Source: an uncultured Saprospiraceae bacterium (GTDB lineage: Bacteria > Bacteroidota > Bacteroidia > Chitinophagales > Saprospiraceae). From it: 64,000 nucleotides of DNA. Position numbers and translations under genes: made by a program. The stretch covers positions 1-64,000 of the forward strand of contig CALFWO010000062.1 in the NCBI GenBank assembly GCA_937928045.1, written 5' to 3'. The notes below the pieces were generated by a model. That model saw only the letters and a program-made list of their open reading frames with translations. It ran no database searches and was not told the origin of the DNA. This document shows positions 14,067 through 41,253 of this stretch, one piece after another; position 1 is the stretch's first letter; every line of letters starts with the position of its first letter.

Positions 14067-17000
14067 ATGATGAAATTCTACACATACTTTTTTATCACCA
14101 GCTTTTTTCTAATCAATTCTTCAAATTTAGATGCACAATGCAATATTTCAATATCCAATACCAATCCCTGTGCTGAGGAATTAATCAATTTTTCAGTGAC
14201 TAATCCTAATGGAACTTATGGATGGGATTTCGACGGAGATGGAAATATCGATGCCTACGGAGATAATGTTAATTATACTTTTCCGCAATCCGGTGTTGAT
14301 ATCATTTATATAATTAATCTATTTCAAGATAATACGCTTTGCGAATCAGAACAGATCGTAGTACTGGCTAGTCCTAATCCAATACTCGGAGTAGTTCCCG
14401 GAAATGCAATCATTGATGATAATCTCATTCGTGTTTGTAGCCCCACACCATCCGCTACTCTACAATTAATCAATTTAAGCACAACCATTTCGATCGACGC
14501 CAATTATACTATAAATTGGGGTGATGGAATCACCGAAAATTACACTCCTACAAACTTTGGCGCTACTGGATTTATCACGCATAATTATGCCGACTATGGT
14601 TATTACAACTTAACCTTTAGCACAATAGCAAACAATGGCTGTTTCAATGCCATAAATTATACTTTTTACAATGGATCAAATCCTTCTGTTGGTTTGGCAA
14701 ACCCAGGAAATACTGTTGGCCTTTGCGCTCCAGCAACGATCGAATTTCCGATTACCAATTATCAGAACAATCCAGTAGGCACAGTTTACAATGTTTTTAT
14801 CGGCGGTGAGCTGATAGAAAGTTATACCCAGCAAAATGTACCAGCTTCTTTTTCCTATACATTTTTAGAAACTTCCTGCGGACTTAGCACCTCAACAGGA
14901 AATTATACCAATGCCTACGATGTTCAAATAGAAGCAATTAATCCGTGTGGATCCTCCCAAGCTACGATAGAACCTATTGAAATAAGCACACCACCAGAAT
15001 TAGAGTTCTCCACAGACACTCCTGAGAATGGTTGTGAAGGAATCCCGATAACCATTTCAAACATTTCTACTAATATTAATGAAATTATTTCTGGAAATCC
15101 TTCCACTTGCGAATCTAGTTTGACGCCGAGTTGGACCATAACTCCTGGAACTTCTGGTACTGATTGGGACATCATTTCAGGAAACACATTTGGGTCTGAC
15201 GAGTTGGTTATTGTTTTCAATAACTCAGGTGAATACATTATCACAATGACGATCAATAGCCCAGCATGTGGTCCGGCGAATTATAGTCAATTATTTAACA
15301 TTATAAATTCCCCAGTGGCCGGATCAGAATTAACTTTAAATACAAATGCTGGAGGAGGAATCGATGACAGTTGTATCCCATCCATTGGAAGTTTTACGAA
15401 TTTATCTACTGGAGATAGTTTAGCATACAATTGGCAAATTTCACCTGCTAACGGCTGGAATTTTGAAAATGGATCTAGTGAAACTGATGAAAATATTGAG
15501 ATCAGTTTTAATGAATCAGGTGACTACCATGTTACTTTAACCACAAGTAACATCTGCGAATCTTCTCAATGGGATACCAGCATCATTATAGTAGAAACTC
15601 CTTTGGTTGACATTGGTCCGTTTGATTCATTCTGCGAAAACGGAACTTTAAATATTGATCAAAGTGATGTAAACTACAATCCACAAAATGGAACCATTAC
15701 TGCCTACAATTGGTCTTTTCCTGGCGCAAATCCTAATTCATCAACTGATCCATATCCCACAGGAATATTTTATGACAGCCCTGGAAATTATAGCATCAAT
15801 TTATCAGTTACAAACCAATGCGGAACGACATCTGTCAATAGTACCTTGGAAGTGCAAACCCCTGGTAATCTAATCGTTGATAATAATCACTTAATTTGTC
15901 AGGGTAGCACTCCTTTTCAACTTTTTGCAGACCCTGAAGGAGGAACTTGGTCTGGAAATGGTGTTGATATAAACGGCATTTTTTCCCCAACTCCCAATAC
16001 GGTTGGACAAAATACATTGGTGTATTCCATTGAAACTGGAGCTTGCACATTGATCGATAGCGTGCTGGTAACAGTTTTGGAACAGCCTAATGCAAATGCG
16101 GGCGAGGATCAATTCGCTTGCCTGGAAGACGAACCATTTTTATTAACTGGAGGGACACCAATTGGCGGGACTTGGAGTACCAATAATTCTGGTGTTATCA
16201 TTGGCGATAATGCCTTTGACCCAACAGCTTCCGGAGCCGGTATATATACGATCATCTACAGCTATATTGATGCAAATGGATGTGAAGATGAGGATGAAAA
16301 AACATTGATTGTGACCGAGCATCCGGATGTCGAAGCCGGCCCTGATTTGAGTATCTGCGAAAATCCCAATGATGTAATTTTAACCGGTTTTAATCCTATT
16401 GGCGGAGTTTGGTCCGGACCGGGGGTTTCTCCATCTGGAATATTCAATGTTCAACAAACAAATGGCCAAGGAACTTATGAGCTACAATACGAATACACTG
16501 ATCCAAATACCGGCTGCACCAATCTTGACAGCATGTTGATTACTGTTGTCGAAAATGATACTGCACAAGCCGGTGAAAACTTAGTTTTTTGCCTAAGCGA
16601 CGATCCATATATTTTGGAAGATGGAATACCAACTGGCGGAACTTGGTCGGGAATTGGAATTGACCCAAGTGGAAATTTTTTCGACCCCACTTTAGCAGGC
16701 GTTGGAACACATATCATTAATTATACTTTTGGATCTGGAATTTGTGAAACCACAGATGCCAGAGTCATTATTGTAAATCCGATACCAAATTTGACGCTAC
16801 CGGAGGATAGAATGATTTGCGTTAATCATGAAATCATTTCATTAGCAACTGTCCAACCCACTGGAGGAACTTGGATAGGACCGGGAATAGACTCACTATC
16901 TTTTAATCCAACAATAGCTGGCATCGGTCTTCATAATTTAATTTATCAATATGGCCACCCAACAAGCGGATGTACCGCCCAGGATACCTTGCAATTAAAT

Positions 17001-20000
17001 GTGGTAGACATTCCTACTATAATCGTAAGCGATTCCGCCTACTGCTATCAAGCCGGTACGGTTCCTTTGCCAATGACTACCCCATTTGGAGGAATATGGT
17101 CTGGGCCAGGTTTAGTGGGCACCAATACTTTTGATCCAATATTATTAGGCGGACCAGGAACATATGAATTCAACTATTCATTTACAGATCAAAATAGTTG
17201 TGTTGTTTCAGAATTAATAAACATATCCATTTTCGCACCACAAATAATTGATGCAGGACCAAATGATAGTATATGTTTATTCGACGGATTACTTTACTTA
17301 GATCAACAAACTCCGGCTGGTGGTGTTTGGTCCGGTGATGGAATTGTTGACAGCATCCTTGGAATATTTGATCCAGAAATTGCTGGCGGAGGAACTCACA
17401 ACATCAGTTACTCTTCTGGAATTGGGAATTGCTTAGTTACCGATCAGAAAACTATTTTTGTCATTGATCTCACTGGAATAGGAACAGGAGGAACTGCTGA
17501 ATTTTGCGAATTTGAATCATCTAGTTTTCTTCAGGCCACTGGACCGGTAGGTGGGATTTGGTCGGGACCAGGAATCATCAATAGTATAACTGGATTATTT
17601 GATCCGGCGCAAGCTGGGCCAGGAGAACATGCTATTATTTACGAATACACCGATCCAATTATTGGATGCTCGGCCACCGCCAATAAAGTGATAACGGTTT
17701 TTCCCCAAACACCCTCCACCTTTTCAGCAAGCGAAGTCAGCTGCGCCAACGAAACAGTGCAATTTATAAATCAAACAACTGATTTCGAAAATGTATATTG
17801 GGATTTAGGAGATGGCAATACCACTATCGCTCATGATCCTATACACATCTATGATAGCGCCGCTACCTATTTGGTTCAATTGATTACTGAAAATGAATTT
17901 GGATGTAAAGATTCTTCAAGTCAGAATATATTAATTGTAAATGTTCCAGAACCCGTCTTCAGTTTAGACACTTACGTCGGTTGCGGTCCTTTAGCAATTG
18001 AATTCTCTAACCAATCCACAGGCTACGAAACTACTTTCAATTGGGACTTTGGAAATGGTAATACGAGCTCAGCACTTTTCCCAGATTCTCAAATCTATTT
18101 GGCCGGAATACTTGATGATACCACTTACTATACCACACTAGAAGCTTCGAATCTTTGTGGAACTGTAAGTCTGCTAGATTCAATAACTGTCCGACCAATT
18201 CCCAAAGCGAATTTTGCATTTTATCCAGAAGAACCCTGTTCTCCTATGACCGTAACTTTTGGTAATGCCTCTTTCGGGTCAGTTGAAAATTTCTATTGGG
18301 ATCTAGGCAATGGAAATACTTCAACCGACACCCTTCCGGCAAATCAAATCTATACAACTGATACGACGACTTCTTTCTACGATGTTCTTTTGGTGGCAAG
18401 TAATGAATGTGGTGCCGATTCAAGCATTCAAACTGTAGAAGTAATTCCTGCCGATGTTCGTTCATTTTTTACAGTATCCGACGACCGAGGATGTCAACCG
18501 TTTACAGTCGAATTTAGCAACTTTGCCACCATTGGTGCTAATATTGATTGGATATTCGGAGATGGAAATTCCAGCATAGCATTAAATCCAGTCCATACAT
18601 TTAATGATCCAGGAACTTACACTGTTATACAATATGCCACTAGTGATTGTGGATATGACACTTCAGCAATCGTAATTGAAGTTTTACCTTCACCTTTAGT
18701 CAACTTTAACAATACAAACTATGTATGTTTAGGCGAAGCAATAACATTTAACAATACCTCTCAAAATACATCTGGTTCTGTTTGGGATTTTGGTGATGGT
18801 ACTGGATCTACTTTGACTTCTCCCGAACATATCTATTCGGCACCTGGAACATACGAAGTATCTTTGACTGGATTTTCTCAATTTAATCAATGTCCGTCGA
18901 CCATCACTGGTTCAGTAATCGTCCAAGGATTGCCAATTGCGCAATTCGAGCCAGCTGATCAATTTGGTTGTGCTCCTTTCAACGCATTGTTTAACAACAA
19001 CTCCATAAATTCTGAATTTTATACATGGGATTTCGGCGACGGAAATACTTCCGTTGATGAAACCGTAACTCATTTGTTTGAAGATATTGGTACATATTCC
19101 GTTCAACTCATTGCCACAGACACTTATGGTTGCTCTCATGATACTTCAATAATAAACATAATGGTTCATCCTACACCTTCCGCTGATTTTGATTTTGATC
19201 AAGAAGCACTCTGCAGCCTTCCAGCCAATATTATATTTGAAAATCTTTCAGAAGGAGCGGCTGGATTTATATGGGACTTTGGAGATGATAATAGTTCCTT
19301 TGGAAACAATCCGGCACACACTTACTTTGAAGAAGGTAATTACGACATTTCGCTGATTGCAAATAATCAATATAACTGCGCAGATACACTCATCGCGTCA
19401 ATACAAATCAGCGCTCCACCTGTCGCTGCATTTGAAGTCATTGATCATGAAGGCTGTAGTCCGCTAACCGTGAGCTTTCTTAACGCCAGTGACTATGGTG
19501 ATAAATTTGTTTGGAATTTTGGAGATGGGCAATCAAGTGAACTTGAAAACCCAACGGTCACATTTACTGATGTAGGAATTCATAATGCAGAACTCATCGT
19601 TAGTAATAATGATCTTTGCTTTGACACCTTACAGTTGGCTTCATTGGTAGAAGTTTTTCCGAGTGTGAACGCTAGCTTTGATACAGAGAATGAGCAAGAA
19701 GGGATACAAACCGGGGCATATAATTTTATCAATACCAGTACAGGAGCTTCGAATTATTATTGGGAATTTAGTGATGGTTCAATTTCGAATGAGATAAATC
19801 CTGAACATCGATTTGAAACCAATGGCGCCCAACAAATCTATCTATCTGCGAGCAATGAGTTTGGTTGTCAAGACGATACTTTAGTCAGTTTGACACCTGA
19901 TTGGATCAAAGGTTTATTCATTCCAAATGGTTTTTCTCCTGAGCAAGGAATTGGCGATGTCCGGTTATTCAAACCAGCGGGAATTGGCCTCAAGGAATAT

Positions 20001-20231
20001 AAAATCCAAGTATTCTCTCCGTATGGTCAAATCCTTTGGGAATCAAATAAATTGACTGATGAAGGTAAACCTGCCGAAGCCTGGGACGGAACTTACCAAG
20101 GAAAAATGTTGCCTCAAGATGTCTACGTTTGGAAGGCTTGGGGAATGTTTGGCGATGGAACGGTATGGCCCGGAGAAAAGCGTGATGACGGGAACTACAA
20201 AACGATTGGCTCTGTAATATTGCTCCGGTAA
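14067..20231 (+). CDS. Giant PKD-repeat surface protein with T9SS type B (CHU_C) sorting domain
   Basis: The protein has 2054 residues. A signal peptide (about 1-24) precedes an early PKD-like domain (WDFDGDGNIDAYGD) and Ig-like segments. Next come eight repeats built around P-x-G-G-x-W-x-x-x-x-G (for example PTGGTWSGIG, PFGGIWSGPG, PAGGVWSGDG), most followed by FDP..AG.GTH.I.Y. About nine PKD domains follow, marked by W-(D/N/I)-(F/L)-G-(D/N)-G (for example WDFGDGNTS, WDLGNGNTS, WIFGDGNSS). The end, from IPNGFSPEQG, is a CHU_C type B T9SS sorting domain. It is a cell-surface or released adhesin, probably exported with the adjacent PorP/SprF protein. ATG 14067 is the first of two adjacent ATGs. 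Confidence 0.93.
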   Translation: MMKFYTYFFITSFFLINSSNLDAQCNISISNTNPCAEELINFSVTNPNGTYGWDFDGDGNIDAYGDNVNYTFPQSGVDIIYIINLFQDNTLCESEQIVVLASPNPILGVVPGNAIIDDNLIRVCSPTPSATLQLINLSTTISIDANYTINWGDGITENYTPTNFGATGFITHNYADYGYYNLTFSTIANNGCFNAINYTFYNGSNPSVGLANPGNTVGLCAPATIEFPITNYQNNPVGTVYNVFIGGELIESYTQQNVPASFSYTFLETSCGLSTSTGNYTNAYDVQIEAINPCGSSQATIEPIEISTPPELEFSTDTPENGCEGIPITISNISTNINEIISGNPSTCESSLTPSWTITPGTSGTDWDIISGNTFGSDELVIVFNNSGEYIITMTINSPACGPANYSQLFNIINSPVAGSELTLNTNAGGGIDDSCIPSIGSFTNLSTGDSLAYNWQISPANGWNFENGSSETDENIEISFNESGDYHVTLTTSNICESSQWDTSIIIVETPLVDIGPFDSFCENGTLNIDQSDVNYNPQNGTITAYNWSFPGANPNSSTDPYPTGIFYDSPGNYSINLSVTNQCGTTSVNSTLEVQTPGNLIVDNNHLICQGSTPFQLFADPEGGTWSGNGVDINGIFSPTPNTVGQNTLVYSIETGACTLIDSVLVTVLEQPNANAGEDQFACLEDEPFLLTGGTPIGGTWSTNNSGVIIGDNAFDPTASGAGIYTIIYSYIDANGCEDEDEKTLIVTEHPDVEAGPDLSICENPNDVILTGFNPIGGVWSGPGVSPSGIFNVQQTNGQGTYELQYEYTDPNTGCTNLDSMLITVVENDTAQAGENLVFCLSDDPYILEDGIPTGGTWSGIGIDPSGNFFDPTLAGVGTHIINYTFGSGICETTDARVIIVNPIPNLTLPEDRMICVNHEIISLATVQPTGGTWIGPGIDSLSFNPTIAGIGLHNLIYQYGHPTSGCTAQDTLQLNVVDIPTIIVSDSAYCYQAGTVPLPMTTPFGGIWSGPGLVGTNTFDPILLGGPGTYEFNYSFTDQNSCVVSELINISIFAPQIIDAGPNDSICLFDGLLYLDQQTPAGGVWSGDGIVDSILGIFDPEIAGGGTHNISYSSGIGNCLVTDQKTIFVIDLTGIGTGGTAEFCEFESSSFLQATGPVGGIWSGPGIINSITGLFDPAQAGPGEHAIIYEYTDPIIGCSATANKVITVFPQTPSTFSASEVSCANETVQFINQTTDFENVYWDLGDGNTTIAHDPIHIYDSAATYLVQLITENEFGCKDSSSQNILIVNVPEPVFSLDTYVGCGPLAIEFSNQSTGYETTFNWDFGNGNTSSALFPDSQIYLAGILDDTTYYTTLEASNLCGTVSLLDSITVRPIPKANFAFYPEEPCSPMTVTFGNASFGSVENFYWDLGNGNTSTDTLPANQIYTTDTTTSFYDVLLVASNECGADSSIQTVEVIPADVRSFFTVSDDRGCQPFTVEFSNFATIGANIDWIFGDGNSSIALNPVHTFNDPGTYTVIQYATSDCGYDTSAIVIEVLPSPLVNFNNTNYVCLGEAITFNNTSQNTSGSVWDFGDGTGSTLTSPEHIYSAPGTYEVSLTGFSQFNQCPSTITGSVIVQGLPIAQFEPADQFGCAPFNALFNNNSINSEFYTWDFGDGNTSVDETVTHLFEDIGTYSVQLIATDTYGCSHDTSIINIMVHPTPSADFDFDQEALCSLPANIIFENLSEGAAGFIWDFGDDNSSFGNNPAHTYFEEGNYDISLIANNQYNCADTLIASIQISAPPVAAFEVIDHEGCSPLTVSFLNASDYGDKFVWNFGDGQSSELENPTVTFTDVGIHNAELIVSNNDLCFDTLQLASLVEVFPSVNASFDTENEQEGIQTGAYNFINTSTGASNYYWEFSDGSISNEINPEHRFETNGAQQIYLSASNEFGCQDDTLVSLTPDWIKGLFIPNGFSPEQGIGDVRLFKPAGIGLKEYKIQVFSPYGQILWESNKLTDEGKPAEAWDGTYQGKMLPQDVYVWKAWGMFGDGTVWPGEKRDDGNYKTIGSVILLR

Positions 20232-20296: not shown

Positions 20297-20902
20297 ATGC
20301 CAGATAATAATCCAGCAATAGAAGATTACATTGAAAAATTTCCGCAGTGGAAAAACGAACTCAAAAATTTGGTTAAAATCCTCAGAAAATCAAAGTTGGA
20401 AGAAACCATCAAATGGGGAATGCCAAACTTTTGTTTGAATGGTAAAATGGTATTTGGAATTGGTGCCTTTAAAAAACACTACGGCATTTGGTATTTTCAA
20501 GGTGCATTGTTGAAGGATACATCTAAAGTATTAAAGAATGCTCAACCTGGAAAAACTCAAGCGATGCGCCAATGGAAATTTAAGCATGGGGATGTACTTG
20601 ATGCCAAGTTAATACATGATTACAATACTGAGGCGATTGCAAATGAGAAAGCTGGCTTGCGGGTTGTTACCAAGAAAAGTAAACCAAAGCAAATAGCCAT
20701 GCCTTTTGAATTGGCAGATCATTTGAAAAGATACCCTTCTGATAAAAATAGATTTGAAGGCCTTACCAAAGGAAGACAAAACGAAATCAAAAATTATATT
20801 AACGAAGCCAAAAGGGAAAAAACGCGTTATGATCGTTTGGCTAAAAGCATGGATTTGTTGTTAGAAGGGAAAACACCGATGGATAAATATCGAAAATCTT
20901 AA
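20297..20902 (+). CDS. DUF1801 / YdeI family protein
   Basis: The 201-residue cytosolic protein has an N-terminal DUF1801 domain (about 15-115; phrases EETIKWGMPNFCLNGKMVF and HYGIWYFQGALL). A C-terminal YdeI/OmpD-associated region follows (about 130-195; MPFELADHLKRYPSDKNRFEGLTKGRQNE..YI..AKREKTR). Family members are related to frataxin-like folds and have been linked to surface charge or antimicrobial resistance in Firmicutes, but the molecular role is not established. It overlaps the convergent pxpC gene by 4 bases at the shared TTAA. Confidence 0.88.
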   Translation: MPDNNPAIEDYIEKFPQWKNELKNLVKILRKSKLEETIKWGMPNFCLNGKMVFGIGAFKKHYGIWYFQGALLKDTSKVLKNAQPGKTQAMRQWKFKHGDVLDAKLIHDYNTEAIANEKAGLRVVTKKSKPKQIAMPFELADHLKRYPSDKNRFEGLTKGRQNEIKNYINEAKREKTRYDRLAKSMDLLLEGKTPMDKYRKS

Positions 20903-21759
20903 GACCGAGCAGTGAGATGAAGTAAAAATTCTTGATTGGTTTTTAACTGAGCAAATTTATTAATACTCTTTTCAGGTAAGGTTAAAATTCTTGGATAACC
21001 TCCAGTCGTTTGAGCATCTCGCATAAGTACGATCAACTGTCCAGATGGTGTTAGTTGTATTGTTCCAGGAATCACAGGATTGGTTAAAATATTGAATTGA
21101 TTTTCCAAATATTTTGTACTTCCTTTTAGCGGATAGGCCATTCTATTTGCAGTCGGTAAGATTTGGAATGTTGTCTCAGTCAATCTAGCAATTTGCATTT
21201 CACTAAGCAATGAGAAATCAGGACCAGCTAAACATTCAATTACTTTATCGTTATTAAAAGGCTTTGACTTTAAATTAGCATTCAGCGTTCCTCGATTATT
21301 GCTCAGGTAATAGGCCTGTTTATCATTTTTCTCAAATCTCATTGAAGTACTTAGTCCAGCCACAGCACTGCATGCACAAAAAAAAGACTCTGCGATAAAA
21401 CCATTTTTAATTCCCAAATACAATAATTTTCCTTGGGTTATTTTTTGCAAGTTCAAAACATCACCAGCTTCGATTTCCAAAATCGATTTATTTATCGGAG
21501 CATCATTTAATTTTACTTCTACAGTAGCACCAGCCATGGCTACTTGGCAAGGCGCATTAAATTTCAAAACAGGCCCCATTTGAGTACACTCCAAAATCGG
21601 AGCATTCGCATTATTATTTAGCATTAAATTTACTCGTCTAGCAGAAGCACGGTCAAGGGCTCCGCCGTTTGGAATCGCGAGGTGTCGATATCCTTTTCTT
21701 CCCAAATCTTGCAAAGAAGTAAATAGTCCAGGTTTTATTATTTCCATTTCTCCTTCCAT
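20899..21759 (-). CDS. pxpC: 5-oxoprolinase subunit PxpC (KipA family)
   Basis: PxpC forms, with PxpA and PxpB, the prokaryotic ATP-dependent 5-oxoprolinase that opens 5-oxo-L-proline to glutamate. The 286-residue protein starts MEGEMEIIKPGLFTSLQDLGR, the KipA-family opening, and carries GGALDRASARRVN plus the terminal GGYPRILTLPE motif. It is the last gene of the leftward operon, one base after pxpB. Met5 (21747) is an equally good start. The domain is also called biotin-dependent carboxyltransferase-like (AHS2). Assignment is firm because all three subunits are adjacent. Confidence 0.93.
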   Translation of the reverse strand: MEGEMEIIKPGLFTSLQDLGRKGYRHLAIPNGGALDRASARRVNLMLNNNANAPILECTQMGPVLKFNAPCQVAMAGATVEVKLNDAPINKSILEIEAGDVLNLQKITQGKLLYLGIKNGFIAESFFCACSAVAGLSTSMRFEKNDKQAYYLSNNRGTLNANLKSKPFNNDKVIECLAGPDFSLLSEMQIARLTETTFQILPTANRMAYPLKGSTKYLENQFNILTNPVIPGTIQLTPSGQLIVLMRDAQTTGGYPRILTLPEKSINKFAQLKTNQEFLLHLTARS

Positions 21760-21760
21760 G

Positions 21761-22489
21761 CTATGTCTTTAATTTATAGGGAGAAAAATTATTGTTATAA
21801 ACGCTGGTTATGATTTCAGAAAACGTTCTGAGATCAATAGGTTTGAATTTGACTTGATCTCCCGGTTGAATAAAGCAAGGTGAAGGATTTTCTGCATCAA
21901 ACAGTTCTATTGGTGATCTTCCTATGAGATTCCATCCTCCTGGACTTACTTGGGGATATATTCCGGTTTGATTTCCAGCGATGCCAACTGCGCCTTTGGG
22001 AACTGATTGCCGAGGTGTTGATCTTCTTGGTAATTCCAGCCGTTTATCCATTCCACCGAGATATAAAAACCCTGGCAAGAACCCAAGGAAGTATACGCGA
22101 TAAATGACCTCTGAATGCCATTTAATCAGCTGAGCTAAATCTATGTTTTTTTGCTTGCAAAAAATGATGCTATCTTCGGCTACTTCTGGATGGTAGCAAA
22201 CTGGTATTTCCCAAAGATTAGAATCACGCTTAGCTAGGGAGTTAAAACTTTGATAGGTCACCTTCAATGTTTTCTCCAAATCATTAAAACTAATTTTCGC
22301 AGGATCATATCTTATGCAAAGACTCGCATAAGTCGTATTGGACTCGATGAACCAATCTTCAAATTTTTGATTGATCAAATGATCAAATTGCAATAAGTCT
22401 TCAGAAATTTCAGGATCTATTTTCTGCGGCCAATTGATCAAAGCATATTCATCGCCAAATTTTTCTATCCTAATTTTATAAATTCCCAT
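21761..22489 (-). CDS. pxpB: 5-oxoprolinase subunit PxpB (KipI family)
   Basis: The 242-residue protein is the second 5-oxoprolinase subunit (AHS1/KipI domain). Recognisable phrases include WEIPVCYHPE, the HSEVIYRVYFLGFLPGF segment, LPRRSTPRQSVPKGAVGIAG and GGWNLIGRSP near the C-terminus. In Bacillus the KipI homologue inhibits sporulation kinase KinA, but in this gene context the metabolic role applies. The start ATG 22487-22489 lies inside the last codons of pxpA (14-bp overlap), indicating translational coupling. Confidence 0.93.
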   Translation of the reverse strand: MGIYKIRIEKFGDEYALINWPQKIDPEISEDLLQFDHLINQKFEDWFIESNTTYASLCIRYDPAKISFNDLEKTLKVTYQSFNSLAKRDSNLWEIPVCYHPEVAEDSIIFCKQKNIDLAQLIKWHSEVIYRVYFLGFLPGFLYLGGMDKRLELPRRSTPRQSVPKGAVGIAGNQTGIYPQVSPGGWNLIGRSPIELFDAENPSPCFIQPGDQVKFKPIDLRTFSEIITSVYNNNFSPYKLKT

Positions 22490-23207
22490 CTATGAATTGT
22501 TCATTTATAAATTTTAAAATTTCAACCGAATTATTATGATCGCCATGTATACAAAAAGTCTTTGCTTTAATTTGCAATTCTTCCCCAGATATCGATAAGA
22601 TTGTTTGATTCTTAACCAGATTCTTAAACTGTTCAAAAACTTGCTCTTTGCTTTCTAGGACTGCACCGGCTTTTTTTCTAGAGACCAGCGATCCATCTGA
22701 ATTGTAGGTACGGTCTAGGAAGGCTTCGGTCCAAACTTTGCGGCCTTGAGATTTTACCGCAGTTTCCAATTTCGATTTTGCTGGGCAATAAATTATCCAA
22801 TGAGCGGGATAAATATTTAAAAGTTCAGCCACTTTATTTGCAAGGAATTGATCTTTTGCTAATTGATTGTAAAGCGCACCATGAAATTTCAAATGGTGAA
22901 TTTCCACTGCTTCACTTTCGGCAATCGCAACAAAATTATCAATTTGATCTTTTATACTGAATAACAGATTCTCTGTAGAAATTTCCATCACTATCCTTCC
23001 AAAATTTTCTCGATCTGGATAAGAAGGATGAATACCGATCAGTACATTATTTTGTTTTGCAAGTTGAATACATTCTGTGATGATACTATTATTTCCTGCA
23101 TGAGCACCACAAGCGATATTGGCAGATTGAATCAACGGCATGATCTGCTGCTCCACATTTTTTTCCTCACCTAAATCACAATTAATATTGTACGGAAATT
23201 TGCTCAT
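22476..23207 (-). CDS. pxpA: 5-oxoprolinase subunit PxpA (LamB/YcsF family)
   Basis: PxpA is the LamB/YcsF-family subunit of 5-oxoprolinase. I set the start at ATG 23205-23207 (MSKFPYNINCDLGEE), giving 243 residues and the family opening INCDLGE close to the N-terminus. The open frame reaches 23267, but that would overlap the preceding carrier gene. Motifs seen: SANIACGAHAGN, IGIHPSYPDRENFGR, HHLKFHGALYN, EAFLDRTYNSDGSLVSR and CIHGDH. It sits between the NRAMP-like carrier (8 bp upstream) and pxpB (overlap). Confidence 0.93.
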   Translation of the reverse strand: MSKFPYNINCDLGEEKNVEQQIMPLIQSANIACGAHAGNNSIITECIQLAKQNNVLIGIHPSYPDRENFGRIVMEISTENLLFSIKDQIDNFVAIAESEAVEIHHLKFHGALYNQLAKDQFLANKVAELLNIYPAHWIIYCPAKSKLETAVKSQGRKVWTEAFLDRTYNSDGSLVSRKKAGAVLESKEQVFEQFKNLVKNQTILSISGEELQIKAKTFCIHGDHNNSVEILKFINEQFIDGNL

Positions 23208-23215
23208 GCTAAAAT

Positions 23216-24430
23216 TTAGAATATTGCTCCGAAAACTTTGTACAAACCTTTGGCACCAAGAAAACAAGCGAATAGAAAAACTGAAAAACCGATCAAGTTT
23301 TGAAGTCGATTGTTTTTATGGACTCCTAAGATGTTTGACCTATTCATCACCCAAAGCAAAATCCCAGCAATAACTGGCAATAAAATCCCATTGGCAATTT
23401 GAGCGAAATGAATAATCTGAATTGGTTTAATATTTAGTAATGAGAATCCAACACCAAGCACAATAATTAAAAACCAAACTGCTCTAAATTTTGTGGACTT
23501 CAAATCATCTTCCCAATCAAAACATCCGGCGGCAACAAAAGATGCTGCAAGCGGAGCCGTGATCGCCGAGGTCAATCCTGCAGCGAACAAACCAATACCT
23601 AAAAAGTATTTTGAAAAACTGCCGAGCAAAGGTGATAATCCTTTTGCTAAATCTCCTGCATTGGAAATCTCTTGGCCTATCAAAGGAATCGCACAAAGTA
23701 CTACGCTGAGGCTCACGAGTCCTCCTAGCACTATCGAAAATCCAGTGTCAAACCGCATGGCTGAAAGGTCTTTAGCACCACTCCATTTTCTTTGGACCAA
23801 AGAAGCATGCAGAAATAAATTGTATGGTACCACAGTGGTACCAACTAACCCGAGCACCAGCAAAAGTGATCCTTCTGGACTTTGAAAAGTAAAAAGACCT
23901 TTAAAAATTTCTATTACATCCGGCTTGGTTAATATGGCTGTAATTATAAAAGTAATGCTCATGATAATTACCAGTGTAACCAAGCTTTTTTCAATCACTT
24001 TATAATCACCGATAAAAAGAATTATGCAAGCTAGAATGCCAAGCAAAATTACAATCACATTTGAATTCACGGAACCATCTGGAAAAAGCGCTTGGATTCC
24101 CAAAACTCCACCCGACAAATTTCCTGCTTCATAAGCTGCATTACCGACAACGATAGCCGAAAAAATTAAGCCTAAAACAATTTTCCTAATGACTGGATTT
24201 GGAAAAGAAGATTTAATTAATCCTGCCAGTCCTTTGCCAGAGATCAAACCAGCTCTTGCCGACATCTCTTGCAATGCAATGGTTGCAATGATGGAAATCA
24301 AAACGGCCCATAATAAAGCATAGCCAAAATTTACTCCAGCTAAAGTACAAGTGGTGACTGTCCCGGGACCAATAAACGCAGCCGCGACAAGTGCTCCTGG
24401 ACCAATATTTTTTAATTTCTCAAAAATCAT
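23216..24430 (-). CDS. NRAMP-fold carrier lacking canonical metal ligands (YcsG-like), in 5-oxoprolinase operon
   Basis: This is a 404-residue polytopic inner-membrane protein of the NRAMP family (LeuT fold, about 11 helices). In metal-transporting NRAMPs, helix 1 carries DPGN and helix 6 carries MPH. Here helix 1 reads G21-P-G-T24 and helix 6 reads V201-P-Y203-N, so the Asp, Asn, Met and His are all replaced. The frame and these codons were checked directly on the complement. In Bacillus subtilis the NRAMP-like ycsG also sits with ycsF/kipI/kipA. I infer an uptake carrier for 5-oxoproline or a related organic solute, not Mn/Fe. The start overlaps the DUF2891 stop by 4 bases (ATGA). Confidence 0.88.
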   Translation of the reverse strand: MIFEKLKNIGPGALVAAAFIGPGTVTTCTLAGVNFGYALLWAVLISIIATIALQEMSARAGLISGKGLAGLIKSSFPNPVIRKIVLGLIFSAIVVGNAAYEAGNLSGGVLGIQALFPDGSVNSNVIVILLGILACIILFIGDYKVIEKSLVTLVIIMSITFIITAILTKPDVIEIFKGLFTFQSPEGSLLLVLGLVGTTVVPYNLFLHASLVQRKWSGAKDLSAMRFDTGFSIVLGGLVSLSVVLCAIPLIGQEISNAGDLAKGLSPLLGSFSKYFLGIGLFAAGLTSAITAPLAASFVAAGCFDWEDDLKSTKFRAVWFLIIVLGVGFSLLNIKPIQIIHFAQIANGILLPVIAGILLWVMNRSNILGVHKNNRLQNLIGFSVFLFACFLGAKGLYKVFGAIF

Positions 24431-25548
24431 TCAGAACAAATTAAAGCGTATAAGGCAAAACTTGCGAGCCAATGTTCGCCGGCATAATCTCCATCGACAA
24501 CATTTCCAATTGAAAAATTAACGTGATTATTTGCGATGCTCTTGATAACGTTTTCATTTCCGAAGCCTTTTTTGGATAAACCATAAAGTACCCATGCTCG
24601 ACTAAAATTAACGCCATCCAAATGAACCAATTTGCCATCTGTTCGATCAGAAACTTGCCCAGGTTCTAAACTAAAGTTTTCATCATACAATTGCGGTAGA
24701 AAATCTCTTAGCCATCTTTCAAACTCTTTTTTCTCTAGGACCCTACTCATGATATCTGCTTCTTCCAAACATGGCGAAAGAAAATCATATCCACTGGGTT
24801 CCCAACTTATCGGACATTCCTTATCATTCAAGAACCAATCTTTTGCTCTTCTATTGATCAAGTTTAATAATTCTTTGTCGCCAGTTGTATTTGCGAAATC
24901 CCAAGCGAAGGAAATTCCGAAACCAGTATTGGTATGCTCTCCAACTCGAATAGGATAATACAACTTTGGTAAAAATTCTATGTATTTATTCCGAATTAAA
25001 TCTGTCAGCGGAGCTAAATTTTGGGACATTTTTTTGGCATCTTCATCTTCCCAAGTATGTAGAGATTCGGCCAGTTTTAACAACCAAGCCCAACCATAGG
25101 TTCTTTCGTAAGACTTGTTATGTTTTCCTTCAAAATATTTGATTTCATTTAAAATATTTTCTTTGGAGATATTCTCTAATAGTCTTTGGCGCACTTGACC
25201 AGCCTCTTTCATTTCTGGGAAACGCTTCAATAACTCCACTAACATCCAATGGCCATGAACTGAGGAGTGCCAATCAAAGCAACCATAAAAAGCGGGATGC
25301 AAAGCTTTTGGAGATTGCAGATTTTCTAGGCTTCCCAATACTTGTCCAAGTTTATTTGGAAATTCTTTTTGCATACATTTCAAAGGCAATTGGGCTAGAT
25401 GTTCCGCTTGCTCCAAAGTCAATTTTACCGGTTTAGAATTTGAAATAAGAGAACTGCTTTTGACTGGACTTGTTGCTGGACTTTTTTGTTCCTCTTTACA
25501 AGAAATAAAACAACAAAAAAGAAGGCACAATAGATAATGAACTTTCAT
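24427..25548 (-). CDS. DUF2891 lipoprotein, first gene of the 5-oxoprolinase operon
   Basis: The 373-residue protein has a lipoprotein signal (MKVHYLLCLLFCCFISCKEE, acylated at Cys17). The DUF2891 body begins with LPLKCMQKEFPNKLGQVL and has HPAFYGCFDWHSSVHGHW. The pattern of helices and aromatic/His-rich turns resembles alpha/alpha-barrel enzymes, but no activity is established for DUF2891. It heads the operon that continues with the NRAMP-like carrier and pxpABC, overlapping the carrier start by 4 bases, so a role in releasing or handling a pyroglutamate-containing substrate in the periplasm is a reasonable guess. Confidence 0.88.
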   Translation of the reverse strand: MKVHYLLCLLFCCFISCKEEQKSPATSPVKSSSLISNSKPVKLTLEQAEHLAQLPLKCMQKEFPNKLGQVLGSLENLQSPKALHPAFYGCFDWHSSVHGHWMLVELLKRFPEMKEAGQVRQRLLENISKENILNEIKYFEGKHNKSYERTYGWAWLLKLAESLHTWEDEDAKKMSQNLAPLTDLIRNKYIEFLPKLYYPIRVGEHTNTGFGISFAWDFANTTGDKELLNLINRRAKDWFLNDKECPISWEPSGYDFLSPCLEEADIMSRVLEKKEFERWLRDFLPQLYDENFSLEPGQVSDRTDGKLVHLDGVNFSRAWVLYGLSKKGFGNENVIKSIANNHVNFSIGNVVDGDYAGEHWLASFALYALICSE

Positions 25549-32181: not shown

Positions 32182-34701
32182 ATGACTTATAATACAAACT
32201 ACATTATAATTTGCATCCTCCTGCTGTTTGGAAAGGGAATGCAAGCACAAATTTTCGACAGCATTCAAATTGTAGACTCCCTAAATATTACTAATGCTTC
32301 ATTTGAATTAGCCGAACTAAATAACGATGGACAAATTGATGTATTCATCAGAGGAATTGATTCCACAGGAAGTCAATTATCCTATGTACTGTCAAGACCA
32401 ATGAGCGACGATTCTATAACTGCCGCCACTTTTCAAAAATTCAATTCTAATCTTGATAGTCTACAAACTGGAAAATTTGTTTTTGCGGATGTAGACAATG
32501 ACAACTTTCTTGACATTGTATTATCTGGATCACGCAATGGAATTCCTAATACACAACTCTACTACGGAACAGATAGTTTTGAATTCGAAGATCCGATCAA
32601 TATTTCGAATCTAAATGCTAATATGATAGAAATCGCTGATTTAAATTCTGATGGCTATAAGGAGATATTGCTCTCAGGAATCAACTTAGGGGGAGTTCCA
32701 GAATTTCAATTGTTTAACAACTTGCTAGATCAATTAGTTCCGGTGGATACATTAGATTTGATTGGTTTAGTCAATGGCAGTATTTCCGCTTTTGATTTCA
32801 ACAATGATGCTAAAAAGGATATTCTTTATCACGGGGTTGATGCCACTAATATTCCTCAAACTTTTCTGTATATCAATTCAGATAATTTTGAATTCCACCA
32901 GATTCCATCTGGCATTTTGGGAACAACAAATGGCAATTTAGAAATCAGTGAAATTAATGGCGATACACTTGCAGATATATTAATTCACGGAGAAAATGAG
33001 ATGGGAGAACGATTTACAAAAATTTTCCAAAACGAAGGAGATGGTTTTTCAGAACTCCCATCAATGTTGCCTGGAATTTCTAATGGACAACTATTATTTG
33101 CTGACATTAATGCTGATGGATCAAGTGATGTCGTTTGTAAAGGAATTAATGATGCTGGAGAAATCATAAATCAAGTATACTTTAATGATAACCTTTCTGG
33201 GTTTAATATTGCCTTTGACACCAGTAGTCTTCAAAACATTCATCAACAATTTGGGCATTTGGATTGTGATGGAAATCTTGATGCTGTTCAAAGCTCAGAT
33301 AGCTTAGGATTCACAAGCGTCAAGTTTTTATTAAATAATACGATAAATGATAATTCAGGTCCAATTCGCCCTTCAGAACATGCTGCAATTGTATTGCCTA
33401 ACAAAGTAATAATTGTATGGGATGACATGTTTGACGCAGTTTCCCGACCTGGAAGTTTAACATCAGATTTATTCGTTCGGCGAATTGCTCAAGACACTTT
33501 TGTATCTTCTCCTAATTTTCTATTGGAGGGAAATGAAAGAATGTTAGTGAAACATGGAAATCAAGGCTACTCGAGATCGACAGAAATCAATGACTTAACT
33601 AATCAAGGTCTTTATCAATATGGAATTCAAGCCTTAGACAATTCTTATATGGCAAAAAATGTATTTTGTTCCGAAGGCCCAGGTTCATTAAATCTAATTG
33701 CAACCGGCATTTTTCGAGTATGCGATGAATCTCAAGCACTTGTCGACACCATCAAGGCTTGCGAAGGCAACATGATAACCTTGCCATCCAATGGTATAAT
33801 GGCTTATTATTCAACATTATCTGGAATTCTCGGAATTGGAGAAGATGTTCAATACACCGTTGCCGAAAATGATATTATTTACTTTGGCACTATGGGATCA
33901 TTAGACTGTGCTGACCAAGGAATTATTTACATCGATGCTCTGGAAGATCAAGAACCTTTAAATGAACTGGAGGATATTGAAATATGTGCTGATGAGTTTA
34001 TTGAAATTGAATTTACGGGGTCCTATGATTCGCTTTTCTGGACAATAGCCTCTACTGGTGAACAATTTGATATCCCTAGCATAGAAATTAGTACGCCCCA
34101 AGATGAGCAAGTATTTTTAGAAGTATTCTCGGGAGGATGTCAGTTGTTTGATACCATGAATATCGATGTTCAATTAATTTCAGTAAATACTGATCCAAAT
34201 ACCTACATGATTCAACTTGGTGAATCCATTGAACTAAACGCCAGCGGTGCTGATTTTTATCTTTGGAAACCTGAAAATTTAATTGACCTCAATGGAATAC
34301 CAAATCCTGTAGTTACACCAAATGTTACAACTACTTTTATTGTAGAAGGAATTAATGACTTCGGATGTAGGGACACTGCTTCCATATTAGTTATTGTAAA
34401 TTCGCAGAATTGGGCTCCGACCTTGTTTACTCCAAATGGCGATGGTAAAAATGATTTCTTTAGAATTTATGGAACCTATTTTCCAAAGGATCTTGATTTC
34501 TTCATTTATAATCGAACTGGACAGTTAGTTTTTCAAACTGATAATTCAGCTGCAATTGCTGGAAATGGTTGGAATGGAACCAAGGATGGAAAAGAGCAGC
34601 CAACGGGAGTATACTTTTGGAAAATTAATGGTACTTCAAATAATGGTGAACCACTATTGATTAATGGTAAAAAAACAGGAGCAGTACATCTAGTGAGGTA
34701 A
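32182..34701 (+). CDS. FG-GAP/VCBS repeat surface protein with T9SS type B sorting domain
   Basis: The 839-residue exported protein has a signal peptide ending KGMQAQ. Five or more FG-GAP/VCBS-type calcium-binding repeats follow, with D-x-D/N-x-D-G loops such as LNNDGQIDVF, VDNDNFLDIV, LNSDGYKEIL, FNNDAKKDIL and INADGSSDVV, making an integrin-alpha-like propeller. Fibronectin/Ig-like segments come next, and a CHU_C type B sorting domain begins at LFTPNGDGKNDFF and ends with GAVHLVR. It is 35 bp after the TonB-domain gene and 4 bp before the PorP-OmpA gene, so it is probably the cargo of that barrel. Confidence 0.92.
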   Translation: MTYNTNYIIICILLLFGKGMQAQIFDSIQIVDSLNITNASFELAELNNDGQIDVFIRGIDSTGSQLSYVLSRPMSDDSITAATFQKFNSNLDSLQTGKFVFADVDNDNFLDIVLSGSRNGIPNTQLYYGTDSFEFEDPINISNLNANMIEIADLNSDGYKEILLSGINLGGVPEFQLFNNLLDQLVPVDTLDLIGLVNGSISAFDFNNDAKKDILYHGVDATNIPQTFLYINSDNFEFHQIPSGILGTTNGNLEISEINGDTLADILIHGENEMGERFTKIFQNEGDGFSELPSMLPGISNGQLLFADINADGSSDVVCKGINDAGEIINQVYFNDNLSGFNIAFDTSSLQNIHQQFGHLDCDGNLDAVQSSDSLGFTSVKFLLNNTINDNSGPIRPSEHAAIVLPNKVIIVWDDMFDAVSRPGSLTSDLFVRRIAQDTFVSSPNFLLEGNERMLVKHGNQGYSRSTEINDLTNQGLYQYGIQALDNSYMAKNVFCSEGPGSLNLIATGIFRVCDESQALVDTIKACEGNMITLPSNGIMAYYSTLSGILGIGEDVQYTVAENDIIYFGTMGSLDCADQGIIYIDALEDQEPLNELEDIEICADEFIEIEFTGSYDSLFWTIASTGEQFDIPSIEISTPQDEQVFLEVFSGGCQLFDTMNIDVQLISVNTDPNTYMIQLGESIELNASGADFYLWKPENLIDLNGIPNPVVTPNVTTTFIVEGINDFGCRDTASILVIVNSQNWAPTLFTPNGDGKNDFFRIYGTYFPKDLDFFIYNRTGQLVFQTDNSAAIAGNGWNGTKDGKEQPTGVYFWKINGTSNNGEPLLINGKKTGAVHLVR

Positions 34702-38286: not shown

Positions 38287-41253
38287 CTATTGAATAATTA
38301 GTTTTTTAACAATATGCTGTCCTTCATTAGTAATACTTTTAAAGAAATATACTCCAGGTTCAACATCTAACGAAATCATTTTTTCACTGCGACCTTTCAT
38401 ATTTCCTTGCATCAGAATTTTGCCCTGGAGACTCAACAACTCAAAATTTTCCAGATTTAAAGTTGTTTCTACTTGAACCGAAGTTCTTCTACTTGAAGGA
38501 TTAGGATAAAGTTGAACCATATGAGAAAGGTTTGGATCATTGGTCCCTAAGCTTCGATCTATGATTATTACTTCGGAGGTTTTCGGACGAGTAGAAATTA
38601 CCTCTCCTTGATAATTAATCATTTCGACATTTGCTATTTCGAATTCGACCTCTAGATCTGCTCCTCGGTTTCTCAAGATGTCATCTTCCATGATAATTAT
38701 AAAATCAGCTACTTGACCAAAACCAGATGCATTCATTGAATTAGTTCTTGATATCGCGACATCCAATCGCCCAACGGTAGAAAACTCTTTTTGTACCATA
38801 ATATATTGATCTATGCCATCACTCATCCAAGAATCAATTGGTGCCAATCGAGCTGAACCATCAACTACGACTTCTGGATCAAAATGTATCGAAAAAGCTA
38901 ATCCATAAATATCATTCGCCATCGTGTCCATAGTGCCAATTATCAATGGAAGACTTATTGAAATACCAGTTCCAGGAATAGTATCTGTATCCAAGAAAAT
39001 TGGAATTCCATCTGAAGCTTGATTAACTATACCAGATCGAGAATAAGTCTCTCCCCAGTTTTGAATTATAGCCATGGTATCTGCATAAGTCACAACTCCA
39101 TCTCCATCACAATCTGCATGTTTTTGATTGCCACTATACCCTTGAATACTATCAGGCCAATCATCGGCTAAATGCCCATAAAAGTCAATATCCATTTCGG
39201 TACGCGAAGGCCCATTTTCATCTAGTGTAAGCGCCAATGGCAACAAATCAAAATGATCAACGATCAAATTGGTATCGACATCTCCAGGCCATACACAATC
39301 ATTGTAAACCGCCACGTTATATTCTTCAATAAAAATTTCATTGTTGGGTCCAGAAAACGCAGCCTCGTAAGTAGTGTTTGTGTCTGGACTAACTCGAATA
39401 TCATAACAATCGTCACAATCGATATTATTAAAATCTGGATTCACCCATGAAATAAATGTCCAACCAAAAGGATTCACAATATTGATTTCCACGGAGTCTC
39501 CTTTACAGATTTGAGCATCGTTAATAATTGATTGGGAAGCATCACAGATAAAAATATTAGCATATTCTTCTTGACAAGTCCCACTTTCATTGGTTACGGT
39601 AACGCTATAAATTCCTATGTCTAAATTTAAAAGTTCAGGCTCCGAAGATATAACACCATTGCTCCACGAGTAAGTATTATTGGCAAATGGATTGTTGACA
39701 TCAAGTACAATAGAACCAAGTGATCCTACTGAAGCGCAGTTGGTAACAATATCGTTAACCATAGTTCCATCTTCAACTATGGCAACATTAGTAATCAAAC
39801 ATCCAAGTGGATCAGTTACCGTTAAGGAATAAGTTCCTGCGGTCAAGCCATCTAGATGCGGAGTTGTTACAAAATTAGACCAATTATAAGTATAATTTGG
39901 ATTAGAAATTGTCGCTGATAAAATTCCATCACCAGCTCCTACGCACGAAGTTGGATAACTATCAATTTGCAAATCATCTAAATCTGATTCTTGGATGGTA
40001 AAATTAACTACGGCAATACATGCATTTACATCTGTAATTGTTACCGTATAAGTTCCTGCGTAAAGTTCACAAAAGCTGCTTACCGGTGGTGCTGTCGGAA
40101 TAGACCAAGTATATAGATAAGGAGGAATTCCGCCTACAGGAATTATTTCTACACAAGTGCTTGAGTTATTACAAACAAATAAATCGCCATTAATTTCCAC
40201 TTGAATTGGTGAGCCTATTGAAAAATCCTCAGTGGTCGTACAAATATTATTCGTAACAGCTACACTAAAGTTTCCTGAACTAGTAATTTGAATGGAATCT
40301 TCATTTCCAATTATAACTCCGTTTTCATCATACCAAGTAATAAAGTAAGGTCCATTTGTATCTAGTACGTTTACTGACGCCGTATTCAAATCTGGTTGAC
40401 AAGGATTCTGAGGAGCATTTAATTCGAAATTGATATTTTCATCAATATAAAATGAGTCGATTGATCCGCAAATATTGTCAAAAATTTCAATGTAATATTT
40501 TCCAGGCCCCAAGTCCTGAACTTCCGCTTGAAAAGAAAAGGAAGTGCCATCTTCATACATCCAATTGTAAGCAAATGGTGGAGACATATTGATAAAATTA
40601 ATCGAAGCAGTTCCATTTGATGCTTCACAATTCGAATCTGTGGTATTTACAGTAAAAGAACTTACAATGGACAAGCCTTGATCAATCTCTAATGAATCTA
40701 TATGAATACATCCATATTCATCTTCGAATTCAGCTAAGTACAATCCACTTCCCACATTGAAGGAATCTCCTATAGAAATCATTCCATTCGGCTCAATCAA
40801 TGATATCGTATAACTGGCTTGTGGGAAGGTCCAGCCCCCAGAAGGATTTACAGTCAATATATGACCGTTGGAATAAATACAACTGCTGGTATCCACTATT
40901 TCAAAGCCAGCAGAGAAGGTTCCACCCCACTCCGCTTTTAACCAAGTAGTTTCACAGAGACTTGGATATCCGATGATAGTCAAAGTATCAATGTTTTCAG
41001 GAATTTGATAGACTTCAAAGGTTGGACCAGCCGCAATATTTTGCAACTGAATCAAGCTACCAAAAGCAAATACTTTAATGGAATCTTCATTATTCTGGAG
41101 AAAATTCAATGTGAGAATAATTTCCTCAGATGAACAATTTATGGGATCAACTTGGAAGTCTATTTCATAATTCCCGGAACATTGTCCATATCCTGAGAAT
41201 GAGGAAAAAACAAAAGATAATAAGAAAAGAAATGGTACAATTTTGAAACGCAT
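38287..41253 (-). CDS. Secreted SprB-repeat-like protein with dockerin-like pair and T9SS type A sorting domain
   Basis: The 988-residue exported protein has a signal peptide ending SGYGQ. The N-terminal two thirds contain several SprB-type repeats with the signature (L)xxGxYxxxVTDxxGC, for example LTAGTYSLTVTDPLGC and LYAGTYTVTITDVNAC. A pair of EF-hand-like dockerin loops follows (GDVDTNLIVDHFDLLPLA and DCDGDGVVTYADTMAI), then a cohesin-like beta segment. A type A T9SS sorting domain closes the protein (LYPNPSSRRTSV ... GVYFFKSITNEGQHIVKKLIIQ split only for description). A TATTTTTG -7 box lies at 41289-41296. Ligand is unknown. Confidence 0.9.
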   Translation of the reverse strand: MRFKIVPFLFLLSFVFSSFSGYGQCSGNYEIDFQVDPINCSSEEIILTLNFLQNNEDSIKVFAFGSLIQLQNIAAGPTFEVYQIPENIDTLTIIGYPSLCETTWLKAEWGGTFSAGFEIVDTSSCIYSNGHILTVNPSGGWTFPQASYTISLIEPNGMISIGDSFNVGSGLYLAEFEDEYGCIHIDSLEIDQGLSIVSSFTVNTTDSNCEASNGTASINFINMSPPFAYNWMYEDGTSFSFQAEVQDLGPGKYYIEIFDNICGSIDSFYIDENINFELNAPQNPCQPDLNTASVNVLDTNGPYFITWYDENGVIIGNEDSIQITSSGNFSVAVTNNICTTTEDFSIGSPIQVEINGDLFVCNNSSTCVEIIPVGGIPPYLYTWSIPTAPPVSSFCELYAGTYTVTITDVNACIAVVNFTIQESDLDDLQIDSYPTSCVGAGDGILSATISNPNYTYNWSNFVTTPHLDGLTAGTYSLTVTDPLGCLITNVAIVEDGTMVNDIVTNCASVGSLGSIVLDVNNPFANNTYSWSNGVISSEPELLNLDIGIYSVTVTNESGTCQEEYANIFICDASQSIINDAQICKGDSVEINIVNPFGWTFISWVNPDFNNIDCDDCYDIRVSPDTNTTYEAAFSGPNNEIFIEEYNVAVYNDCVWPGDVDTNLIVDHFDLLPLALTLDENGPSRTEMDIDFYGHLADDWPDSIQGYSGNQKHADCDGDGVVTYADTMAIIQNWGETYSRSGIVNQASDGIPIFLDTDTIPGTGISISLPLIIGTMDTMANDIYGLAFSIHFDPEVVVDGSARLAPIDSWMSDGIDQYIMVQKEFSTVGRLDVAISRTNSMNASGFGQVADFIIIMEDDILRNRGADLEVEFEIANVEMINYQGEVISTRPKTSEVIIIDRSLGTNDPNLSHMVQLYPNPSSRRTSVQVETTLNLENFELLSLQGKILMQGNMKGRSEKMISLDVEPGVYFFKSITNEGQHIVKKLIIQ

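Follow-up and report, generated by a model that had tools for sequence, protein, structure and literature searches.

An NRAMP-fold protein without canonical metal ligands is a predicted 5-oxoproline carrier in a DUF2891-pxpABC operon of an uncultured Saprospiraceae bacterium

Results

On the minus strand of the window (the whole 64,000-nucleotide stretch of DNA analysed here), Pfam, NCBIfam and reading-frame analysis defined an operon in the order DUF2891 - NRAMP - pxpA - pxpB - pxpC (Table 1). The NRAMP-like product of this operon is likely to be an uptake carrier for 5-oxoproline (pyroglutamate) or a close lactam. A 5-oxoproline carrier built on the NRAMP fold had been proposed in the first-pass annotation and is still the best-supported reading, but it is now carried by linkage to HyuAB, by the DUF2891 protein of C. 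jejuni and by a group-wide motif, and not by the evidence first offered.

Table 1. Features of the DUF2891-NRAMP-pxpABC operon, listed in transcriptional order
Feature	Position	Strand	Evidence
DUF2891 protein, 373 aa, first gene of the operon	24427..25548	-	Pfam PF11199, 447 bits
NRAMP-like carrier, 404 aa, GPGT/VPYN group	23216..24430	-	Pfam PF01566, 286 bits, E 5e-85
GPGT, codons 21-24, helix 1 (canonical DPGN)	24359..24370	-	Translation, alignment
VPY, codons 201-203, helix 6 (canonical MPH)	23822..23830	-	Translation, alignment
pxpA, 5-oxoprolinase subunit A (LamB/YcsF)	22476..23207	-	Pfam PF03746, 257 bits; NCBIfam PxpA above cut-off
pxpB, 5-oxoprolinase subunit B	21761..22489	-	TIGR00370, 162.6 bits (cut-off 145.55)
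pxpC, 5-oxoprolinase subunit C	20899..21759	-	Pfam CT_A_B, 190 bits, and position

The position of the carrier gene had been given correctly; its strand is here corrected to minus, the plus strand across the same interval being riddled with stops. The stop of the DUF2891 gene overlaps the NRAMP start by 4 bp, which bears out the coupling of the two genes that had been claimed. The location directly before pxpABC was likewise upheld: PxpA and PxpB pass their NCBIfam cut-offs, whereas PxpC, with an NCBIfam score of 159 against a cut-off of 500, is called from its CT_A_B domain and position only. The most likely start of pxpA is the ATG at 23207, 8 bp past the NRAMP stop; the alternative TTG at 23267 sits within the NRAMP gene. 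An Rfam search of the window gave no match. Elsewhere in the window, positions 14067-20231 encode a protein of 2054 aa that contains at least nine PKD domains and is likely to be a large adhesin of the cell surface, and two further proteins (32182-34701 and 38287-41253) carry type IX secretion sorting domains (CHU_C and Por_Secre_tail).

Translation gave Gly21-Pro-Gly-Thr24 and Val201-Pro-Tyr203, as originally annotated, and alignment placed GPGT at the site of DPGN and VPY at that of MPH, such that the canonical D, N, M and H ligands are all absent from the carrier. An AlphaFold2 model (pLDDT 92.8; 58 sequences in the alignment) has NRAMPs as its nearest solved structures, with DraNramp (6d91) at Z 49.4 and an rmsd of 2.3 over 384, in keeping with the assignment to PF01566. 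After a gap, other LeuT-fold carriers follow, including the amino-acid transporters AdiC (Z 31.0) and ApcT.

With canonical NRAMP/MntH proteins the carrier shares the fold, the Pfam family, the helix-6b His (H208) and the helix-9 Arg/Lys (R316), and it also keeps a helix-3 acid (E101). It differs from them in having neither DPGN nor MPH, in having Asn (N104) for the canonical helix-3 Glu and in having F315 for the first helix-9 Arg. With the metal ligands absent, identification as a canonical MntH was rejected. The NRMT magnesium transporters were also considered: EleNRMT shares the fold (Z 45.6; 25-26% identity with the window protein), but the NRMT signature DxxG-TxxA/T (PMC8806188) reads GxxT-TxxV in the window carrier, and this candidate was rejected for want of the signature.

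The closest description in the literature is that of an Slc11 "orphan outgroup" within PF01566, for which two papers (Cellier 2022, 2023; PMC10606218; PMC9606685) give V-Y in helix 6, Y-N in helix 3 and a Thr. These substituents correspond to V201, Y203, Y100, N104 and T198 of the window carrier, which has no D or N ligands and is placed in the outgroup on this basis. The GPGT/VPY motif is therefore not new. Neither a function nor a gene context is assigned to the outgroup in the accessible parts of those papers (PMC9606685, PMC10606218). What appears to be new is the function suggested here, the link to PxpABC and DUF2891 and the independent link to HyuAB, none of which was found in the literature searched.

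The substitutions are a property of the group as a whole. Among 164 relatives, reaching down to ~41% identity, G21, P22, G23, Y100, G103, N104, T198, T199, V201, Y203, N204 and H208 are invariant, although these counts are not wholly independent because the helix-1 motif and His208 themselves served to define the group. Thr24 is found in 163/164, Pro202 in 158/164 and Glu101 in 160/164, and residue 316 is Arg or Lys. Neutral residues take the place of all four ligand side chains and of the helix-3 Glu (Asn104 here) in 164/164, whereas the ligands D, N, M and H are all present in 31/31 canonical NRAMPs. Part of the set was retrieved with the patterns AFIGPGT[VLI]T and GTTVVPYN, in a scan that was nearly all Flavobacteriia; the same residues were observed wherever the site was covered in loci gathered without patterns (the protein search of 150 family genomes and the pxpA-side survey described below). 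Since positions 21, 23, 104, 198, 201, 203, 204 and 208 are each retained in 164/164, the substitutions do not reflect chance or local decay, and a decayed metal transporter was rejected.

Linkage was surveyed in 150 genomes from the GTDB family to which the window belongs. A window-type gene was present in 47 of them, and 32 of these 47 genes lie within 5 kb of pxpA, compared with 0/97 other NRAMPs (0/32 of a sister group and 0/65 of the rest). Similarly, 18/47 lie within 5 kb of DUF2891, and none of the 32 sister-group or 65 other NRAMP loci does so. The remaining 15/47 have no pxpA within 5 kb, several of them lying at contig ends, and the neighbors of window-type genes away from pxpA share no common partner in these genomes. 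At the level of gene content, pxpA was present in 45/47 genomes with a window-type gene versus 24/103 others (Fisher p 3e-18, relatedness ignored); the sister group, serving as an internal control, showed no such association (p 0.16).

A survey starting from pxpA in 296 Bacteroidota genomes yielded 57 loci. Here, 32 loci carried a window-type gene (one truncated by a contig end), 9 carried an NRAMP of a second type with the motif GPGF, and 16 had no NRAMP within 3 kb, two of these having an MFS permease nearby instead. None of the 57 carried a canonical NRAMP. Across 80 named loci, pxpA was close downstream or within ~4-5 kb in 77, and DUF2891 was upstream in 53.

The sister group retains GPGT/VPYN with Gly or Ala in place of His208, and glycosyltransferase and biopterin-dependent hydroxylase genes are among its neighbors. 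Given these neighbors and the lack of linkage to pxpA or DUF2891, its substrate is probably a different one. A further NRAMP-related group, common in the same GTDB family, has GPGS and ASSFS in place of the metal motifs. The only other NRAMP of the window's own genome (C61:25699-26916) is also non-canonical, with GTGS and VSSAL, and falls in a separate 100/100 group.

The DUF2891 protein of the window has a lipoprotein-like N terminus (FISC), and its AlphaFold2 model (pLDDT 84.9) matches Cj0554 of C. jejuni (8ieu; TMt 0.89, 40% identity). The cj0552-4 operon combines DUF2891 with DUF969/DUF979, and preliminary data show that its deletion abolished growth on 5-oxoproline (PMC12795558). In both settings DUF2891 adjoins a transporter, and for cj0552-4 there is mutant evidence of 5-oxoproline use, but the DUF969/DUF979 families are unrelated to the NRAMP carrier. 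DUF979 was found in 0/150 family genomes, and DUF2891 genes away from a window-type carrier in those genomes had mixed neighbors and did not lie by DUF969/979. One DUF2891 gene away from pxpABC (locus positions 1-2469) is divergent and adjoins a Hydantoinase_A (oxoprolinase-type) gene. DUF2891 is probably an accessory here, as a periplasmic lipoprotein, and its link to lactam use would then extend to a second genomic context unrelated to the first.

An independent linkage was observed in haloarchaea. On 5/5 plasmids examined (from Haloarcula marismortui, H. litorea, Halorussus limi, Haloferax alexandrinus and Halocatena marina), a carrier 45-50% identical to the window protein occupies the arrangement CopG - carrier - HyuA - HyuB, with gene ends nearly abutting. 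GPGT is present in the three haloarchaeal carriers aligned, in which helix 6 reads VGY. Pfam identified Hydantoinase_A on two of the plasmids and Hydantoinase_B on one. The HyuA/HyuB enzyme type has no sequence similarity to PxpABC (PMC13274462), and carriers of one and the same group thus accompany two unrelated types of ATP-dependent lactam-opening enzyme.

The association of an NRAMP with pxpABC had also been noted for Bacillus. An NRAMP-type carrier does stand beside pxpABC there, but it is not the same carrier. In Bacillus badius, synteny and Pfam gave the order pxpA - NRAMP - D-glutamate cyclase, beside pxpB and an IclR regulator, a gene set that we take to correspond to ycsF-ycsG-ycsI-kipI-kipA-kipR of B. 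subtilis. The B. badius carrier (GPGF/GGY) shares 24% identity with the window protein and 58% with the Bacteroidota GPGF type. The PDB integrative model 9a52, titled YCSG-FABL, showed 21% identity to the window model in structural alignment; a phmmer search of the PDB sequence set with a GPGF protein did not return 9a52 among its matches. On these grounds of synteny and the 9a52 alignment, rather than from their own sequences, YcsG/MntG (B. subtilis), PxpT (C. glutamicum), PxpG (C. difficile) and MumT (A. baumannii) are considered to be of GPGF type.

The window and GPGF groups share membership of the NRAMP superfamily, Gly for the helix-1 Asp, Asn104, Tyr203 and an adjoining pxpABC. The GPGF group differs in its motifs (GPGF and GGY rather than GPGT and VPY), in lacking the helix-3 acid and His208, in its gene orders and in that no DUF2891 or HyuAB partner was seen. 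In the tree, the window group and its sister form a 99/98 clade, and the GPGF group forms a long-branched clade of its own (100/100); a topology uniting the window and GPGF groups was not rejected (p-AU 0.296). The window carrier lies outside the GPGF clade and has neither GPGF nor GGY, and at 24% identity its identification as a YcsG ortholog was rejected. Given the separate clades and this low identity, pxpABC has partners from two different NRAMP-related groups. The Bacteroidota GPGF loci near pxpA mostly have the permuted order pxpB-pxpC-pxpA-NRAMP, with one carrier ~2.5 kb off.

Discussion

Loss of the ligands was central to the original argument for an organic substrate. The loss itself is confirmed, but it is no proof of a non-metal substrate by itself because Mn import has been reported for MntG/YcsG and MumT (PMC10448178, PMC5050338), two proteins of a group that is likewise without the ligands. 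The main alternative is accordingly that the window carrier imports Mn, or another divalent metal, through an unconventional site and supplies operon enzymes or nitrogen metabolism, as proposed for those two proteins. Overexpression of MntG raises cell Mn, and MntR binds the mntG promoter (PMC10448178); a mumT deletion lowers Mn and is complemented (PMC5050338). In the window's own genome, no DPGN/MPH NRAMP was found that might supply Mn, and E101, H208 and R/K316 are kept. Against this, the genome encodes ZnuA-type and ZIP proteins, the four ligand positions and the helix-3 site are neutral throughout the group, and a metal accounts less easily than a shared organic substrate for a carrier that accompanies lactam-opening enzymes of two unrelated families. 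We consider Mn import unlikely for the window carrier.

For the GPGF-type proteins themselves the evidence is divided. C. glutamicum depends on PxpT to grow on 5-oxoproline, a requirement supported by complementation, and 5-oxoproline use is lost when ycsG is deleted (PMC13274462); the PxpT result weighs against a metal role. YcsG was nevertheless renamed MntG as an Mn importer, with a polar effect suggested as possible for the earlier 5-oxoproline result (PMC10448178). In a 2026 preprint, MntG belongs to "G-motif 3", and the remaining Nramp-related groups, except that of the Mg transporters, are described as entirely uncharacterized (PMC12873925). All of the published 5-oxoproline and Mn evidence, on YcsG, PxpT and MumT, thus concerns the GPGF-type group and not the window group.

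It is improbable, though consistent with several observations, that the substrate is a related organic solute: hydantoin or another five-membered lactam, D-5-oxoproline, glutamine or a pyroglutamyl peptide. In the PDB, haloarchaeal HyuA is closest to N-methylhydantoinase (457 bits, versus 400 bits for 5-oxoprolinase), so that the haloarchaeal substrate may be another lactam or a hydantoin, and a racemase-like gene follows HyuB on 3/5 plasmids. Moreover, because the sister group keeps GPGT/VPYN without pxp linkage, the motif does not point to any one substrate. In Bacteroidota, however, the partner is PxpABC, whose known substrate is 5-oxoproline (PMC13274462). Export of 5-oxoproline as detoxification, with PxpABC as a parallel route, is very improbable: the compound does arise spontaneously in every cell and can have toxic effects (PMC13274462, PMC6507225), but the DUF2891 partner looks periplasmic and both PxpT and C. 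jejuni cj0552-4 have import roles.

For the favored reading, uptake of 5-oxoproline or a close lactam, the conserved residues suggest a possible mechanism. The carrier would operate as a LeuT-fold rocking bundle, in which two unwound segments without charge (G21-P-G23-T24 and V201-P202-Y203), together with Y100, N104, T198/T199, N204 and perhaps Q344/N347, would form a neutral lactam pocket. Backbone amides of the Gly-rich helix-1 break could bind the carboxylate, as in amino-acid carriers of the APC family, with Tyr203 and Tyr100 contacting the ring and Asn104, Thr198/199 and Asn204 the amide. Transport may be coupled to protons through E101, H208 and R/K316, which are retained and correspond to the canonical Asp, His and Arg. 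Imported 5-oxoproline would then be hydrolysed to glutamate by PxpABC with ATP.

More broadly, there is perhaps an even chance that the Slc11 orphan outgroup consists of lactam (5-oxoproline-type) carriers serving PxpABC in Bacteroidota and HyuAB in haloarchaea, with the distant YcsG/PxpT group filling the same slot. If so, the NRAMP metal importers have organic-solute carriers as close relatives, and a function would be assigned to the outgroup with which NRAMP evolution has been rooted. Such proteins are currently named divalent metal transporters (NCBIfam NF037982 and the plasmid annotation), and many of these annotations would be wrong if they are 5-oxoproline carriers. The dispute over YcsG, 5-oxoproline or Mn, would also become testable with an independent group that lacks the metal ligands.

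Records of A. baumannii in the plasmid collection carry a GPGF-type protein (47%), which is presumably MumT. The mum operon was published in terms of Mn and urea metabolism and might merit a second look as an operon of the pxp type.
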